A stretch of DNA of 64,000 nt from Blastopirellula sediminis (lineage in GTDB: Bacteria > Planctomycetota > Planctomycetia > Pirellulales > Pirellulaceae). Below, piece by piece: positions 17,706-37,039 of this stretch. Within the stretch, counting starts at the first letter, position 1, and the number at the start of each line of letters is the position of its first letter. Made by a program: the position numbers and the translations under genes. Below the pieces are notes generated by a model. It was not told where the DNA came from. It did not search any database and saw only the letters and a program-made list of their open reading frames with translations. The stretch is from positions 3,250,720 through 3,314,719 of the forward strand of contig NZ_JAJKFT010000010.1 in assembly GCF_020966755.1 (NCBI RefSeq), in the 5' to 3' direction.

Positions 17706-18803
17706 ATGTCCAAGCCACGCGGATTTACGCTGGTCGAGTTATTGGTCGTCATCGCAATTATCGGCGTGTTGATCGCCCTGTTGTTGCCGGCCGTTCAGCA
17801 AGCTCGCGAAGCGGCGCGCCGCATGCAGTGCACCAACAACCTGAAGCAGTTGGGGCTGGCGCTGCACAACTACCACGACACCTATCGTTCGTTCGTCTAT
17901 CGAAAAGGGGGCACCGAAAGCCCCTCCGGCACGACCGATTACAACCTTTCGAACTTCGGGCGACGCAGCGGCTTCGTTTCGTTGTTGCCGTTCCTGGAAC
18001 AAAACGCGTTGTGGGAGCAGGTGAAGTCGGGCGGAACGAACTTGCCGAACACCGGCGATCATCGTAATCCCGAAGGACCGTCCGGTTGGCAAGCGAGCTG
18101 GGCTGGTTGGAAGAACGCTCCCGACATGCTCGTCTGCCCGTCCGATCCGGGCGTGCCGGATAACAGCGGCCCCTACAACAGCTATGGCTTTGTGATCGGG
18201 GACCGGATGGACGGCGCCACGAACGACATGAATCCGCGCGGGATCTTCGGCCGCGTGCGAACGACGCGTTTCGCCGACATCATCGACGGTTCGAGCAATA
18301 CGTTGATGATGAGCGAGCGTCTCTGCGAAGGGGCGACGCCGCGTCCTTCGGCCGGCCACACCACCACCGCCAACGAAATTCAGTACAAACTAGCGGTCGC
18401 CGTCGGCATCGCCGGCACGAAAGCGGCGCCGAACGTTTGTTACACTGCGGTCAGCGGCAAGTACATTGTCGCCGGAACCAATATCCAAGGTCGTTGGGGC
18501 GTCGCCTGGACTGACGCACAACCAATGTACGTCGGCATTACCACGATCTTGCCGCCAAACGGTCCCGCTTGCACCGATGACTCAGGGCCAAACGGCGATC
18601 GCAACGACGTCTGCATTCCGCCGACCAGCGAACATCCCGGCGGCGTGAATGGCCTGTTCGCCGACGGATCGATCCACTTTATCGCCGAGACGATCGACAC
18701 CGGCAATCTCGGCGTCGCGCAGCCCTCTAGCGGAGCGAGCATGTACGGCGTTTGGGGCGCTTTGGGATCGAAGGCTGGCGGCGAACCGGTCGGAAGCTTC
18801 TAG
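17706..18803 (+). CDS. DUF1559 pilin-like protein
   Basis: 365 residues, AAGAGG 8 bases before the ATG. The N-terminus [20 protein letters not shown] is a type IV pilin/pseudopilin leader with cleavage after Gly6 and Glu at position 5 of the mature form, then a hydrophobic helix. [20 protein letters not shown] and [10 protein letters not shown] follow, the conserved start of DUF1559. The C-terminus has [13 protein letters not shown], the H-x9-D-G-type motif of this planctomycete-specific family, which is present in very high copy number per genome. The product is thought to be an extracytoplasmic pseudopilin; individual roles are not known. The small lipoprotein that follows at 105 bp is a usual partner. 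Confidence 0.95.
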
Positions 18804-32166: not shown

Positions 32167-32826
32167 TTAGTAGGGCGCGTTCACCTTTTCGATCCACACG
32201 CGTAGCCCGGTCGCCGCCTTGCCAGAATTCTCCGCTTCTTCGATTTCACGATCTGGCATGCAAAAGACTTCGTCATGCAGGAAGCAGCGTCCCGCCTGAG
32301 GGGGCATTTGAACTGCGTCGATCCCTGAGCTGGGCGAATAAGAGCCGAGTTGCGGATTCCAAGTCGCGGGTTGTCGCTCCTCGAGGACCACCCGATCGTC
32401 AACAAGCGTCTGCAGCAGCCACACTTCGTTTTCGCGCAAATAGCGAATGACGATTACATGCTCCCCGGCGGTGAGAGACGCAGCGTTCGTTGCGATATTG
32501 GTCGCACGATCTGTTTGCAGACCGCTGGTCGTCCACGCGAGTTGGAAGTGGTCTCCGTTCGGAACAAAAACCTCCCAGGCGAATCCTTGACTGCCCGGGA
32601 CGTTTCTGCGCGAGGCGGAGATTTGCCTCCATGGTTGCTGAAAGGCGTCAGTCTCCAGTCTCAGCAGGTGCGACAATTGCAGTCGCGCTTGTGCGCACTG
32701 CTGAGGCAGTGTGAACAATGGAATCAGGACGCCGATCGTGGTGGTCAACAAGATCAGCGTCAGCAAGCTGAATTGCCCGAATCGACGCGGATTCGGCTCG
32801 GACGCCGGCGGCTCTTCGAAGCTCAT
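32167..32826 (-). CDS. Module protein B3 (single-pass membrane protein, FSLxTL anchor)
   Basis: 219 residues. A Pro/Glu-rich cytosolic start is followed by one helix containing FSLLTLILLTTTIGVLI at about residues 19-40 and an extracytoplasmic domain. It is paralogous to B1 and B2: WEVFVPNGDHFQL, TAGEHVIVIRYL, TLVDDRVVLEERQPATWN, and the end GLRVWIEKV. The match to B1 is strong (VDDQIVMQESQPADWN in B1). The domain reads as a beta-sandwich. Its start overlaps the A3 stop as ATGA. It is the last gene of the six-gene operon. I know no function for the family. Confidence 0.85.
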   Translation of the reverse strand: MSFEEPPASEPNPRRFGQFSLLTLILLTTTIGVLIPLFTLPQQCAQARLQLSHLLRLETDAFQQPWRQISASRRNVPGSQGFAWEVFVPNGDHFQLAWTTSGLQTDRATNIATNAASLTAGEHVIVIRYLRENEVWLLQTLVDDRVVLEERQPATWNPQLGSYSPSSGIDAVQMPPQAGRCFLHDEVFCMPDREIEEAENSGKAATGLRVWIEKVNAPY

Positions 32827-33503
32827 CGATTCGCTCCGTTTCCGCGAGAATGAATGAGTTTCTCAACCGCTTTTGCGCTGCCGATTTGAAGGCATAAGAC
32901 GGTGAAGTCGTCGTCTGGACTTTGGTATTCCAACTCATGCCGTAGTGACGTGGGCGCCGTCGCGCGAATCAACGTGACGATCTCCTCTTCGTCGAATTCG
33001 TAAATCTGCTGTTCCGCTGCAAACTCGAATTGCAGTTCGTCCCAGTGATCTTGCAGTAGCTTGCGGTGGTCCGGGTTGTCGATTCGCCAGTGCGACGAGC
33101 GGCCCGGTCCTGTGTAGAACAAAAATAACTCGTCGCCTACCGTCTCAAGCTTGATGCGGAGAAAGTTCCCCTGGACGGTCGTGAGGGGGCTGATCGCTTG
33201 AACCAGCGACGTGTCGGAAAAGCGAGTCATCATAGAGAAAGCGGGAGCGTAGTCGAGCGGCGCTTCGCAGCGCCAAGTCGCTTCCCGCGGATCGTCGCTT
33301 GGCAGCTTTAATAACTTGAACTTGGTTGGATCGCAATCGGAAAAATCGCCGAACTTGGCGATCAGTCTGGCCTGTTCTCCATGAAGATGGCGGAGTTGAT
33401 GACTCCAGATGCAAACGCCAAACAGTCCCCACAACGTCACCAGGATGAGCAGGACGTGAATGATCTGCAACGGAGTCAGCTCCCACTTTTTTCCCTCGCT
33501 CAT
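32823..33503 (-). CDS. Module protein A3 (single-pass membrane protein)
   Basis: 226 residues from ATG at 33503, which shares one base with the B2 stop (TGATG); a longer in-frame start at 33524 is less likely. One helix (LQIIHVLLILVTLWGLFGVC) lies near the N-terminus. The outer domain matches A1: RLIAKFG, FKLLKLPSDDP..ATW, HWDELQFE, EIVTLIRATAP and VLCLQIGS correspond to RLTATFG, FQILRVPTDEP..LAW, YWDELKIE, KVIDLIRITAP and CLLIRIGT. No catalytic motif is seen. Overlaps B3 by 4 bp. Confidence 0.85.
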   Translation of the reverse strand: MSEGKKWELTPLQIIHVLLILVTLWGLFGVCIWSHQLRHLHGEQARLIAKFGDFSDCDPTKFKLLKLPSDDPREATWRCEAPLDYAPAFSMMTRFSDTSLVQAISPLTTVQGNFLRIKLETVGDELFLFYTGPGRSSHWRIDNPDHRKLLQDHWDELQFEFAAEQQIYEFDEEEIVTLIRATAPTSLRHELEYQSPDDDFTVLCLQIGSAKAVEKLIHSRGNGANR

Positions 33504-34189
33504 CACTTCACCCTCTCGATCCAAACGCGTAACTCGCGGTCGGAATTTGGATCGACCGAACGGTCTTGGTAGAAGGGATAGAGTTTGTCGATGATGAGAA
33601 ATGGCTGATCGGTTGGCGATTGAATGCTAGTCCGAATTTCGTTCAACAGCAGCCCTTCGGCGGAATCGGGGCGTTCTGGAGGAGAAAACGGGACCTTGAA
33701 GCGAAACAGCGGTTGGCCATCGACAAGCGGGGAAACGTACCAGCGCGGCGCCGTCGACCAAGGGTTCCCTGCGACGGCGAGTTGAATTTCATGCTCCCCT
33801 GCGACGATTTCATGCGACTCTTCCGCTTTCAGGTCGGCCGTGCGATTCTGCGGATCGGCCGCCGGTTTGCCGGTCATACATAAGCGATAGTGCGAGCCTG
33901 GCGGCAGATAAACTAACAGTCGGTGACGGCCCACCAGATAAATGTCTCCCAGAAAATCTGGATTCACGGCGGCGAACTGCTGGGGATCGTCGATGTGCAA
34001 CTCGCGATCAAAATCGTTCCCGCGGGGAAAAAAGGCGTTCGCCTCTTCAATTTGATAACGGGTTCGTAGGTAGCCGGTCCAAACCGCGATGACCGCTATC
34101 AGCAGGATCAGCGTTCGCAAGCTGAACTGCGTTCCGCTCGGATTGGAGGAGGCGTCCGTCGACGTGGGAACCGTCTGCTCTTCGTCCAT
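33503..34189 (-). CDS. Module protein B2 (single-pass membrane protein, FSLxTL anchor)
   Basis: 228 residues from ATG at 34189, which overlaps the A2 stop by one base (TGATG). An upstream in-frame start at 34420 would lie deep inside A2 and gives Arg-rich non-protein-like sequence. Helix FSLRTLILLIAVIAVWTGYL at about 22-41. The outer domain shares LLVYLPPGSHYRLCMTG with B1 (VYLPPDHKYQLCLAS), then AGEHEIQLAV (GEHEVTLNY in B1) and the C-terminal ELRVWIERVK (GLRLWVETLER in B1). The middle section has diverged and lacks the QPADWN motif. Confidence 0.85.
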   Translation of the reverse strand: MDEEQTVPTSTDASSNPSGTQFSLRTLILLIAVIAVWTGYLRTRYQIEEANAFFPRGNDFDRELHIDDPQQFAAVNPDFLGDIYLVGRHRLLVYLPPGSHYRLCMTGKPAADPQNRTADLKAEESHEIVAGEHEIQLAVAGNPWSTAPRWYVSPLVDGQPLFRFKVPFSPPERPDSAEGLLLNEIRTSIQSPTDQPFLIIDKLYPFYQDRSVDPNSDRELRVWIERVK

Positions 34190-34938
34190 CAGGGAGTCCC
34201 TCCTTTTGACGCAGACGGCTTGGGGGCGTCGCCGCCGAATGGGGATGCGCCTTGAGGCGTCTCGCGCAGCGGCGGTCGATTGGGAGGCGACGTCCAAAGG
34301 AAGTAGTCGAAGCTTCCCTCCGCTTTGAACGCCTGGACCGTGCCTAGGCGAATTCGGAAAACCGGGAGGTCGGCCGGAAACTCCGGATGCTCCGCCAATA
34401 GCTCCGGCGAAGGGACCCACTGCAGGATCGTTTGGATTTGCCGGTCGTCGGTGGGGAACTCACCGTCGGCGTTGATCATTTGGAATTCAAACTGATCATG
34501 ATAGTTGTTGAGGAAGTGCTGGACTTCGCTGGTAAAATCGCGCGTATTGCGGTTTCGGCCCGGAATCAGCAAAACCAGATTGGCGGCGGCGTTTTCTTTG
34601 AGAATCTTGAACTCATAATCGTTCTGCGGACTCAGCACGATGTTCTCCGAAGAGAATCGGGCGTTTTGTAGACTGTAGAGGCACTGTATCTGCAACACCG
34701 CGTCAGGCGCTACCCGATGGATGCGATATAGTTGCGCTTGATATTTGTCCCAGCGCAGAGACGCATAATCGATTTCGCGCGGAGACTGCCGATTGTCGCC
34801 AAGCCGATAGTAGTCGACGATGCGCGTTTTGTAAGCCTGGGCGACGCGCAAGCGGAGACTCGCTTCGATCCAAAAAAACAGACCGATCGCCAATCCGATC
34901 CAGAGGAGAGCGTGAAGCGGAACTCGGACGCGATTCAT
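34189..34938 (-). CDS. Module protein A2 (single-pass membrane protein, divergent)
   Basis: 249 residues from ATG at 34938, overlapping the B1 stop as ATGA. N-terminal helix HALLWIGLAIGLFFWIEASL. It is the most divergent A copy but retains the C-terminal core: VQHFLNNYHDQFEFQMI lines up with the YWDELKIE region of A1, and PVFRIRLGTVQAF with LLIRIGTQAAF. It has an extra Pro/Lys-rich tail (PPNRPPLRETPQ, then SASKGGTP). No known domain is recognised. Confidence 0.8.
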   Translation of the reverse strand: MNRVRVPLHALLWIGLAIGLFFWIEASLRLRVAQAYKTRIVDYYRLGDNRQSPREIDYASLRWDKYQAQLYRIHRVAPDAVLQIQCLYSLQNARFSSENIVLSPQNDYEFKILKENAAANLVLLIPGRNRNTRDFTSEVQHFLNNYHDQFEFQMINADGEFPTDDRQIQTILQWVPSPELLAEHPEFPADLPVFRIRLGTVQAFKAEGSFDYFLWTSPPNRPPLRETPQGASPFGGDAPKPSASKGGTP

Positions 34939-35612
34939 CGTTCCAAGGTCTCCACCCACAGCCGCAAGCCGGTCTCGGAGCGTTGCGTGCTGCTCGAGTT
35001 GGGTTGGTCTGGCAGCGGAACGCTAAAGACGCGATCGAATAGCTCTAGCGGCTCTTCGATCGAGAATTGGCGGTTCGTATCGATCTTGCTGCCGCCGGAG
35101 GATCCAAGGCCGAGATTCCAATCGGCCGGCTGCGATTCTTGCATCACAATCTGATCGTCGACGCTGACCTGGATGATCCATTCCTCTTCGACCTTGTAAT
35201 AATTCAGCGTCACTTCGTGTTCGCCAGGGGCGCTTGGCGCGACCAGAGATGGCGCAGGTTTTTCCTCGCCGGGGTGCATATAGGTCATGAAATTCCGGCT
35301 GGCCAGACAGAGCTGATACTTATGGTCCGGCGGCAAATAAACGCGCCAGCGAAAATCATCGTCGCTTAGCTCTTGATGACGCACGGCGGCGTACCAACTG
35401 GGAACGTCAACGCGCAGTTCGCGAGCCAGATTGCGGAGGCTCGGCAGCATCAGCTCCATACGCTTCGTTTCGCGAGCCGTGAGAAAAAAGGCCATCCAAA
35501 CGGCGAAAACGGCGGTGGCCGACATCAGCGTGAAGAGACTGAATCGCATCAGGGAGGGACGCGGCGGCGTCGGGGCAGGCGACTCGGCGGCGAACTTTTC
35601 GTCGGTCGTCAT
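34935..35612 (-). CDS. Module protein B1 (single-pass membrane protein, FSLxTL anchor)
   Basis: 225 residues. Its ATG overlaps the A1 stop as ATGA. An acidic/Pro-rich N-terminus and basic PRPSLMR precede a helix (FSLFTLMSATAVFAVWMAFF). The outer domain runs WRVYLPPDHKYQLCL, PGEHEVTLNYYKVEEEWI, VDDQIVMQESQPADWNLGLG, LFDRVFSVPLPDQ, ending GLRLWVETLER. It is closest to B3. The FSLxTL anchor recurs in many planctomycete membrane proteins. Unknown function; the alternating beta strands suggest a binding domain. Confidence 0.85.
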   Translation of the reverse strand: MTTDEKFAAESPAPTPPRPSLMRFSLFTLMSATAVFAVWMAFFLTARETKRMELMLPSLRNLARELRVDVPSWYAAVRHQELSDDDFRWRVYLPPDHKYQLCLASRNFMTYMHPGEEKPAPSLVAPSAPGEHEVTLNYYKVEEEWIIQVSVDDQIVMQESQPADWNLGLGSSGGSKIDTNRQFSIEEPLELFDRVFSVPLPDQPNSSSTQRSETGLRLWVETLER

Positions 35613-36262
35613 TGTTTCTCCTTCGCTTTCGCAGCCTCTTCATCGAACGCCGCTTGCGTGCCGATGCGGATGAGCAGACAAAGACCGTCCTTCCCGCAGC
35701 GGGGAGTGGAGCCGTCGGAGAATTTCTCTGGGGCCGTAATGCGAATCAGATCGATGACTTTCTCCTGGGCGAACGACTCCGGCGACGTCGAGGAAATCGT
35801 CTCGATTTTCAGTTCGTCCCAGTATTTGCGAAACGCCTCCGCTTCGACGTCGCTTCCTGATCCGCAGGTGCTGCCCCCAAACGGATGTTTGAGAAAACAC
35901 CGCATTTGCTGTTGATCGAAATCGACGCGAAAGCGAATCAGCGACTCTTGTCCCGACGCGCTTGAAATGGAGGAGCCGCTGCCGCAAGATCCTCCGCCGA
36001 ATGCGATGTAGTTCTCAATTCGCAGGGGAACGTTCTGAGGATGTTGAATTCGCCACGCCAAATGCCACGGCTCGTCGGTTGGTACGCGCAGGATCTGAAA
36101 GCGATCGGGAGAACCAGGCGGCATCTCGCCGAACGTCGCCGTGAGACGATCATATTCCGCTTTGATCGACGCTTGTTCTCGTTTCGCGAGGCCGAACATT
36201 ACGACGCCGATGACGAACGCCACGACCAAGGCGAGTTTCAGAATGCGTTGCAGAATTACCAT
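35609..36262 (-). CDS. Module protein A1 (single-pass membrane protein), first gene of the six-gene operon
   Basis: 217 residues. N-terminal helix ILKLALVVAFVIGVVMFGLA, then a helical linker (KREQASIKAEYDRLTATFG) and an outer domain with FQILRVPTDEPWHLAWRI, YWDELKIE, EKVIDLIRITAPE and GLCLLIRIGTQAAF. Two Gly/Ser/Cys loops (GGGSCGSGSS and GGSTCGSGSD) are unique to this copy and could form a disulfide. No strong ribosome-binding site is seen. An 87-bp gap separates it from the GTG-start gene upstream. Unknown function. Confidence 0.85.
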   Translation of the reverse strand: MVILQRILKLALVVAFVIGVVMFGLAKREQASIKAEYDRLTATFGEMPPGSPDRFQILRVPTDEPWHLAWRIQHPQNVPLRIENYIAFGGGSCGSGSSISSASGQESLIRFRVDFDQQQMRCFLKHPFGGSTCGSGSDVEAEAFRKYWDELKIETISSTSPESFAQEKVIDLIRITAPEKFSDGSTPRCGKDGLCLLIRIGTQAAFDEEAAKAKEKQ

Positions 36263-36349: not shown

Positions 36350-37039
36350 CTACGCAGCTTTTGTTTTTTTCCGCTTTTTCGCTTTCGCGTAGGTGACGGC
36401 GTTCCCTCGTTTGCCGACCGGTTCGGCGGCGCCGGTCTCGCGCAAGCAATAGGCGATCCGCTGGGCGATCCACCGCTGACAACCGACGACGCGGGCCAGG
36501 TCGCTGGTGTCAAACTCCTGGGGAAGTTTGCCGGGAACGAATTTCCATAACTGATCGGCGGTTTTCACGCGGCGCGTTTCCAGTACTTCGACCAGCTGGA
36601 TGTCTTCGACGGTGTGATCGTTTTGTCGCCAGCGGCGGCGTTTGCCATGTCCCGGAACGCGATGCTCTTCGATATGGACCAGCGGCACTTCGAGGGTAAG
36701 GTTCTCGTGCGGGAAGACCTTCGTGAAGTAGACGAGGTCGTCGAACAGGTCGAGCCAGGTCCCCTTTTTCGGGCTCAGTCGATTGCTGACGATTTTCCCG
36801 GCGCTCTTGTCGCGGCGGATGATTCGCTTGCGGGCGATCAGCGGTTTGACCACGCGGACCGGGCGCTGCTTGACCAGGGCGGCGATCTTGGGCCCGATCG
36901 CCGAGAGAGAGGCGCACTGCACTTCGACCAATTCTTCGCCGACCACCGCGTCAATCCGATACCGGCCGAACTGGACCTCGGTTGCGGCGTCTTCGCCGGC
37001 GTAGAGGTTTTTCAATTGGCGGTGGAGCGACGTTTCCAC
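36350..37039 (-). CDS. Conserved protein with possible PD-(D/E)XK-like core and C-terminal winged helix
   Basis: 229 residues from a GTG start. Residues about 18-50 read EVQFGRYRIDAVVGEELVEV then QCASLSAI: a Glu helix, an Asp, then ExVEVQ, the strand order of PD-(D/E)XK nuclease-like folds with E-x-Q in place of E-x-K. Residues about 60-110 are basic (ARKRIIRRDKSAGK). The C-terminal part (FDTSDLARVVGCQRWIAQRI, AYCLRETGAAEP) resembles a winged helix, and a Lys/Arg-rich tail (KAKKRKKTKA) ends it. This would fit a DNA- or RNA-binding protein. It lies upstream of the A-B operon on the same strand, 87 bp away. Fold assignment is by eye only. Confidence 0.7.
   Translation of the reverse strand: METSLHRQLKNLYAGEDAATEVQFGRYRIDAVVGEELVEVQCASLSAIGPKIAALVKQRPVRVVKPLIARKRIIRRDKSAGKIVSNRLSPKKGTWLDLFDDLVYFTKVFPHENLTLEVPLVHIEEHRVPGHGKRRRWRQNDHTVEDIQLVEVLETRRVKTADQLWKFVPGKLPQEFDTSDLARVVGCQRWIAQRIAYCLRETGAAEPVGKRGNAVTYAKAKKRKKTKAA

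Follow-up and report, generated by a model that had tools for sequence, protein, structure and literature searches.

Six overlapping genes in a Blastopirellula sediminis genome raise the question of whether two kinds of small membrane protein, A and B, are encoded as a repeated pair that acts as one assembly. The genes, A1, B1, A2, B2, A3 and B3, lie in a 64,000-nucleotide stretch of contig NZ_JAJKFT010000010.1 (positions 3,250,720 to 3,314,719), which is called the window here. A first reading of the letters alone, referred to as the original prediction, had proposed three tandem copies of a two-gene A-B module. We found that the two-gene unit was indeed duplicated, whereas A and B did not prove to be independent families; on sequence comparison they are distant paralogues, two subfamilies of one family, and the six genes are six members of it. 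The explanation that we favor, with middling confidence, is that A and B form a hetero-complex of bitopic envelope proteins derived from a self-associating ancestor of a third type of relative, termed S.

All six genes read on the minus strand, from 36262 down to 32167, in the alternating order proposed: A1 (35609..36262; 217 amino acids (aa)), B1 (34935..35612; 225 aa), A2 (34189..34938; 249 aa), B2 (33503..34189; 228 aa), A3 (32823..33503; 226 aa) and B3 (32167..32826; 219 aa). The anticipated overlaps were present, with four bases (ATGA) shared at A1/B1, B1/A2 and A3/B3 and one base (TGATG) at A2/B2 and B2/A3, and the motifs listed beforehand were found in the sequences. A1 and B1 each have a predicted N-terminal membrane helix and a predicted beta domain. 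A2 is a very divergent A copy and B2 a divergent B copy, and neither had a match in three congeneric genomes (phmmer for A2). When open reading frames (ORFs) of at least 90 aa in the window were scanned for FSLxTL-type and prepilin patterns, the FSLxTL-type helix was found in the three B genes only, and the sole other match was a prepilin-type start at 17712. Scans for regulatory sites were uninformative, giving 1 promoter-like site against 1.4 expected and 10 terminator-like sites against 5.6 expected.

Relationships among A, B and S

Profile comparison with hhalign linked the three types to one another: A and B at 95.4% probability (E=1.7e-8), A and S at 98.5% (E=4e-15), and B and S at 99.7% (E=6e-27), the S profile comprising nine single-type members. 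Additionally, some relatives were matched by both A and B in phmmer searches. S-type relatives occur as single genes and as tandem arrays. Common to all three types are a heptad helix, an ELGxLxIxDP-like turn and a WxWRVxxPxG-like core; B and S also share the N-terminal FSLxTL-type helix and a C-terminal GFxxWxE, whereas A is without the FSLxTL start and its C-terminal part is distinct. S differs further in that it can stand as a lone gene; roughly half of the fetched S loci have it ahead of a desaturase-like gene.

As the original prediction had it, A proteins resembled A proteins and B proteins resembled B proteins beyond chance, with A2 as the weak case. In particular, A1 and A3 were similar at E=3e-17 and A3 and A2 at 3e-5, with just 0.035 for A1 and A2 (BLASTP); in a whole-genome search, B1 and B3 gave E=6e-23 and B1 and B2 gave 2e-13. 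The A profile recovered A2 at E=3e-6 among 2905 ORFs, and A2 alone, compared with the three profiles by hhalign, matched A at 92-95% and left B and S unmatched (A2-S 0.3%). A tree without the B's, of 72 rows (42 A's with 30 of the 75 S's), gave A as one group (support 99) with A2 inside it (96); a 161-row quick tree that included the B's placed A2 outside A, near S rows. This larger tree, from which 5 of 166 members were omitted as too short, resolved B as one group of 44 rows (100) and A as one group of 41 rows (100), without A2 and including four A-like genes labelled S. Both A2 and B2 are long branches, that of A2 being very long.

Only weak, short matches to the six proteins were found in Pfam, NCBIfam, PHROGs and PADLOC, and the same held for ten relatives in Pfam and NCBIfam. 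The sole match among the PADLOC anti-phage models was HerA to A2 (E=0.015, residues 92-174). A sequence search of solved structures gave no meaningful match; a C-type lectin hit to A (whole-chain 2.5e-7) was rejected, as it covered 28 helical positions with no stretch passing alone. None of the titles and abstract starts listed by literature searches concerned the A, B or S proteins. The earlier statement that no named system resembles this one agrees with the libraries searched, in which the family is uncurated and without a name; pairs of paralogous bitopic proteins have precedents, as does expansion in tandem.

Among the genomes searched, the A/B/S family is centred on Pirellulales, in Planctomycetota. 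B1 had matches in 13 of 60 near genomes (E<=1e-3). With the A profile, 72 of 199 genomes from the family gave a match at 1e-3, and many of the weaker matches proved to be S-type where loci were inspected; in the phylum-wide set, 2 of 294 genomes matched at 1e-6. The S profile, at 1e-5, had matches in 63 of 246 genomes when the order was searched and in 5 of 294 for the phylum. These genome-wide profile searches score part of the first-look candidates and may miss some members. In the B. sediminis genome itself, searching with a B-plus-S profile gave six places at E<=0.1, of which four are in the cluster and the other two, elsewhere, span at most 30 N-terminal positions each.

Pairing and tandem duplication of A and B

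The fetched loci held 43 neighbouring pairs of A followed by B, in 35 genomes, 17 genera and two families. The nearest in-frame B start, a choice that favours overlap, overlapped the A stop in 36 of the 43 pairs, with a gap of 1-30 bases in six and a larger one in the remaining pair. Homologues that commonly occur singly, which would have spoken against the original prediction, were not seen among the A- and B-clade genes of the fetched loci, where the exceptions were an A with no B found (L077) and a truncated B without a membrane helix and with no A found (L030); in the S type, singles and arrays do occur. Distances among A's and among B's were correlated (r=0.81 for 41 pairs, after omission of two in which a row was short; 0.86 without A2-B2), and 0 of 5000 permutations reached as high a value. 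The A-B pair is an old unit. The ratio of nonsynonymous to synonymous substitution rates (dN/dS) was 0.12-0.20, alike for A and B, in six of eight comparisons, the other two being saturated. The comparisons cover A1, B1 and the two pairs of a further genome, G022; A1, B1 and the G022 pairs are under purifying selection.

Three pairs, as first supposed, are not the rule, since four congeneric genomes hold three (window), two (G001), two (G002) and one (G003). In G001 and G002, B1 and A3 overlap by four bases (starts set by eye), leaving no room for A2-B2, and this pair was seen in the window genome only. G002 and G003 are close genomes; past B1, G002 goes on with A3-B3, and G003 has an IS3-like element about 400 bases away. 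Because this element stands where G002 has A3-B3, the comparison points to loss of A3-B3 in G003. The element itself is an orfA/orfB pair at L026:6904-8090, downstream of the lone G003 A-B pair, and its identity was read from the two ORFs. In the B tree, B1, B2 and B3 of the genus grouped together (97), with B2 beside B3 (91). G022, outside these four genomes, underwent a separate duplication to two pairs, whose A's are 77% and B's 81% identical. The family gives a natural series of single gene, pair, two pairs and three pairs, which is useful for studying how self-associating proteins become paralogous pairs.

The copy-number change and the one very divergent pair, A2-B2, would also fit a fast-evolving conflict or surface-variation module concerned with defence, toxin-immunity or recognition. 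We consider this highly improbable, given that the PADLOC and PHROG matches were weak only, that dN/dS was low where measured, and that the flanks of the cluster are conserved within the genus.

A 229-aa protein is encoded upstream of A1 on the same strand (window 36350-37039) and had no Pfam match at E<=0.001; its gene adjoins the pair in the congeners too, and a similar gene lies near the pair in L079. Outside the genus, no common functional neighbour of the A-B pairs was seen among the neighbour clusters listed (at most 60, each of at least three loci). The commonest cluster listed, at 18 loci, reads as sulfatases by eye, and we make no claim from it because the loci are not independent; sulfatase genes are very numerous in these bacteria. 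We also observed a second pair type, in which an A-like gene is followed by a long B' whose open frame runs to 511-606 aa (12 examples: L031, L033, L131, L133, L141, L143-L148 and L155). A further copy of the domain was considered for the C-terminal extension of B' and rejected.

Predicted topology and a proposed A-B assembly

Single-chain AlphaFold2 (AF2) models, built on nine-sequence alignments, gave B1 a helix at residues 26-62 followed by beta strands (predicted local distance difference test score, pLDDT, 80.6) and A1 a helix at residues 2-44 followed by beta strands (pLDDT 78.1). Heptad power after the membrane helix was above that of shuffled sequences in A (14.4 vs 5.4), B (9.2 vs 5.9) and S (11.7 vs 6.1), and the charge bias favored an N-in orientation by 20:7 (A), 26:5 (B) and 60:6 (S). 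For these two measures 39 of 44 A, 36 of 44 B and 72 of 78 S rows were used, rows without a clear hydrophobic window being left out. A and B are predicted to be single-pass, N-in proteins, each carrying a heptad helix close to the membrane and a beta domain. Fold searches with Foldseek at E<=0.001 gave no match for B1 in PDB and BFVD, nor for A1 in PDB.

In the hetero-complex that we favor, A and B would be co-translated from their overlapping genes and would most likely assemble together via the membrane helix and the heptad helix after it, as the models and sequences suggest. The two beta domains would thereby sit on the outer side of the cytoplasmic membrane. A single origin of the pair is probable, from S-type ancestors self-associating by way of the same helix; tandem duplication of the entire pair followed in Blastopirellula and would have yielded variant copies of the one complex. 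In favor of this reading stand the fixed order and frequent overlap of the paired genes, the separate A and B tree groups, the correlated distances, the similarly low dN/dS, the heptad periodicity, the charge bias and the modelled helices and strands. We infer the physical contact between A and B; the strict stoichiometry of the original prediction was not confirmed.

Several points weigh against such an assembly. The heptad signal was weaker in B than in the other two types. Of the single angles, 105 degrees per residue came out best for just 9 of the 39 A rows and 14 of the 72 S rows. The locus L077 has an A without a B. Shared species history and common descent of linked genes explain part of the correlation between the A and B trees, and as the pairs remain linked, correlated trees cannot tell contact from linkage. 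Where a genome holds two or more pairs, the closest A and B from other genomes were exact partners in just 7 of 15 cases; six of the other eight point to a single genus for both A and B, and L073 and A2-B2 do not. Moreover, shared regulation can preserve neighbouring paralogues that make no contact, and S genes too form tandem arrays, of up to five genes and some of them overlapping, that show no A/B division (L138, L136, L137, L125 and L139).

These arrays, along with the varying copy number of pairs within the genus, are also in keeping with the main rival, plain tandem paralogy, in which A and B share a promoter, each is homo-oligomeric, and the array provides dosage or variety with no obligate A-B contact. 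We regard this rival as possible, although clearly less probable than the hetero-complex: A and B keep a fixed order and form separate tree groups, and in the fetched loci just one A and one truncated B lack the partner.

Comparison with known systems revealed general similarities to the hetero-complex proposed for A and B, together with differences. PilN/PilO and GspL/GspM are likewise encoded by adjacent, tightly coupled genes for two single-pass proteins, each with a coiled coil and a periplasmic domain, to which A-B are alike by prediction. The domain of the PilN/PilO and GspL/GspM type is ferredoxin-like, whereas a beta domain is predicted for A-B. No PilN or PilO Pfam model matched the six proteins at E<=5, and no pilus or secretion gene was noticed beside A-B among the part of the neighbours checked. 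Type IV pilins and pseudopilins resemble A and B in having a long N-terminal hydrophobic helix and a beta-rich domain. A1 had a weak Foldseek match to an archaeal type IV pilus (E=0.012, prob 0.84), and TM-scores in the pilin comparison were 0.17 and 0.25. The N-terminal motif of the B's (R/Q-F-S-L-x-T-L) reads RFSLFTL in B1, QFSLRTL in B2 and QFSLLTL in B3; a prepilin peptidase site (Gly -1, Glu +5; G|FxxxE) was absent from the B's, and none was seen in the A N-termini. Finally, ConA-like/LamG jelly-rolls (laminarinases, pentraxin and viral ConA-like proteins) recurred as weak Foldseek matches of B1, but none reached E<=0.001 and there was no Pfam match.

S genes and the fatty-acid-type operon

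The S gene stood just 5' of a phytoene-desaturase-like gene on the same strand at 22 of the 45 fetched S loci, in 11 genera and two families, where S loci were those with S genes not followed by B and the neighbour had to match the L037 phytoene-desaturase-like protein at E<=1e-200. The distance was at most 309 bases at 21 loci and 2505 at L138. A second desaturase-like gene lay on the other side of S at 8 of the 22 (2.4 kb away at L153), and the other 14 had none in the stretch available. This context was present in 9 of 28 S loci fetched before the pattern was suspected and in 13 of the 17 that were fetched as a test of it. The Pfam model matched by the desaturase-like proteins is Amino_oxidase. 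Across L138, L150, L153 and L181 taken together, a ketoacyl synthase, an acyl carrier protein, a FabA-type dehydratase and an enoyl reductase were confirmed. With so many single-gene members in a lipid-type operon, the function of those members is testable.

Passages of Rattray et al. (PMC2649909) discuss enzymes of this phytoene-dehydrogenase-like kind that belong to fatty-acid clusters in Kuenenia, an anammox bacterium, and mention that polyunsaturated C31 hydrocarbons have been reported in Planctomycetes; the A/B/S family is not treated in them.

The S context and the fatty-acid-type enzymes beside it are what would be expected if the family served envelope handling of a lipid or polyene made by this operon, with S as its membrane subunit and A-B as a relocated, specialised offshoot. 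We consider this unlikely: 23 of the 45 S loci are without the context (some contigs stop short), it is absent from every fetched A or B locus, and the operon in the B. sediminis genome contains no S gene. The lipid link is a lead, and it comes from the S genes alone. More speculatively, and a little less likely still, A-B could be the heteromeric, tandem-amplified descendant of the membrane subunit of the desaturase/fatty-acid operon, a new bitopic beta-domain class that would arrange an unusual polyunsaturated lipid in the envelope of Pirellulales or export it, a homomeric scaffold having become an obligate paralogous pair.

The operon of the B. sediminis genome (L178:6060-11826, corresponding to C4:1146059-1151825) encodes a ketoacyl synthase, two phytoene-desaturase-like flavin adenine dinucleotide (FAD) enzymes, a FabA-type dehydratase and an enoyl reductase; its two desaturase-like genes are adjacent. 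The search match to the second of these (L160; C4:1148853-1150262) counts one internal TAA, and an open frame of 463 aa (L178:8827-10218) covers nearly all of the gene. Several relatives have an S gene next to the FAD enzymes of the operon or between them. Arrays of three to five S genes were found in genus g66 (L125, L136, L137 and L139), with genes that are sulfatase-like by eye nearby on the opposite strand. At L138:6780-10486 (G577), five tandem S genes lie between the two desaturase-like genes of the operon, with about 2.5 kb more before the second.

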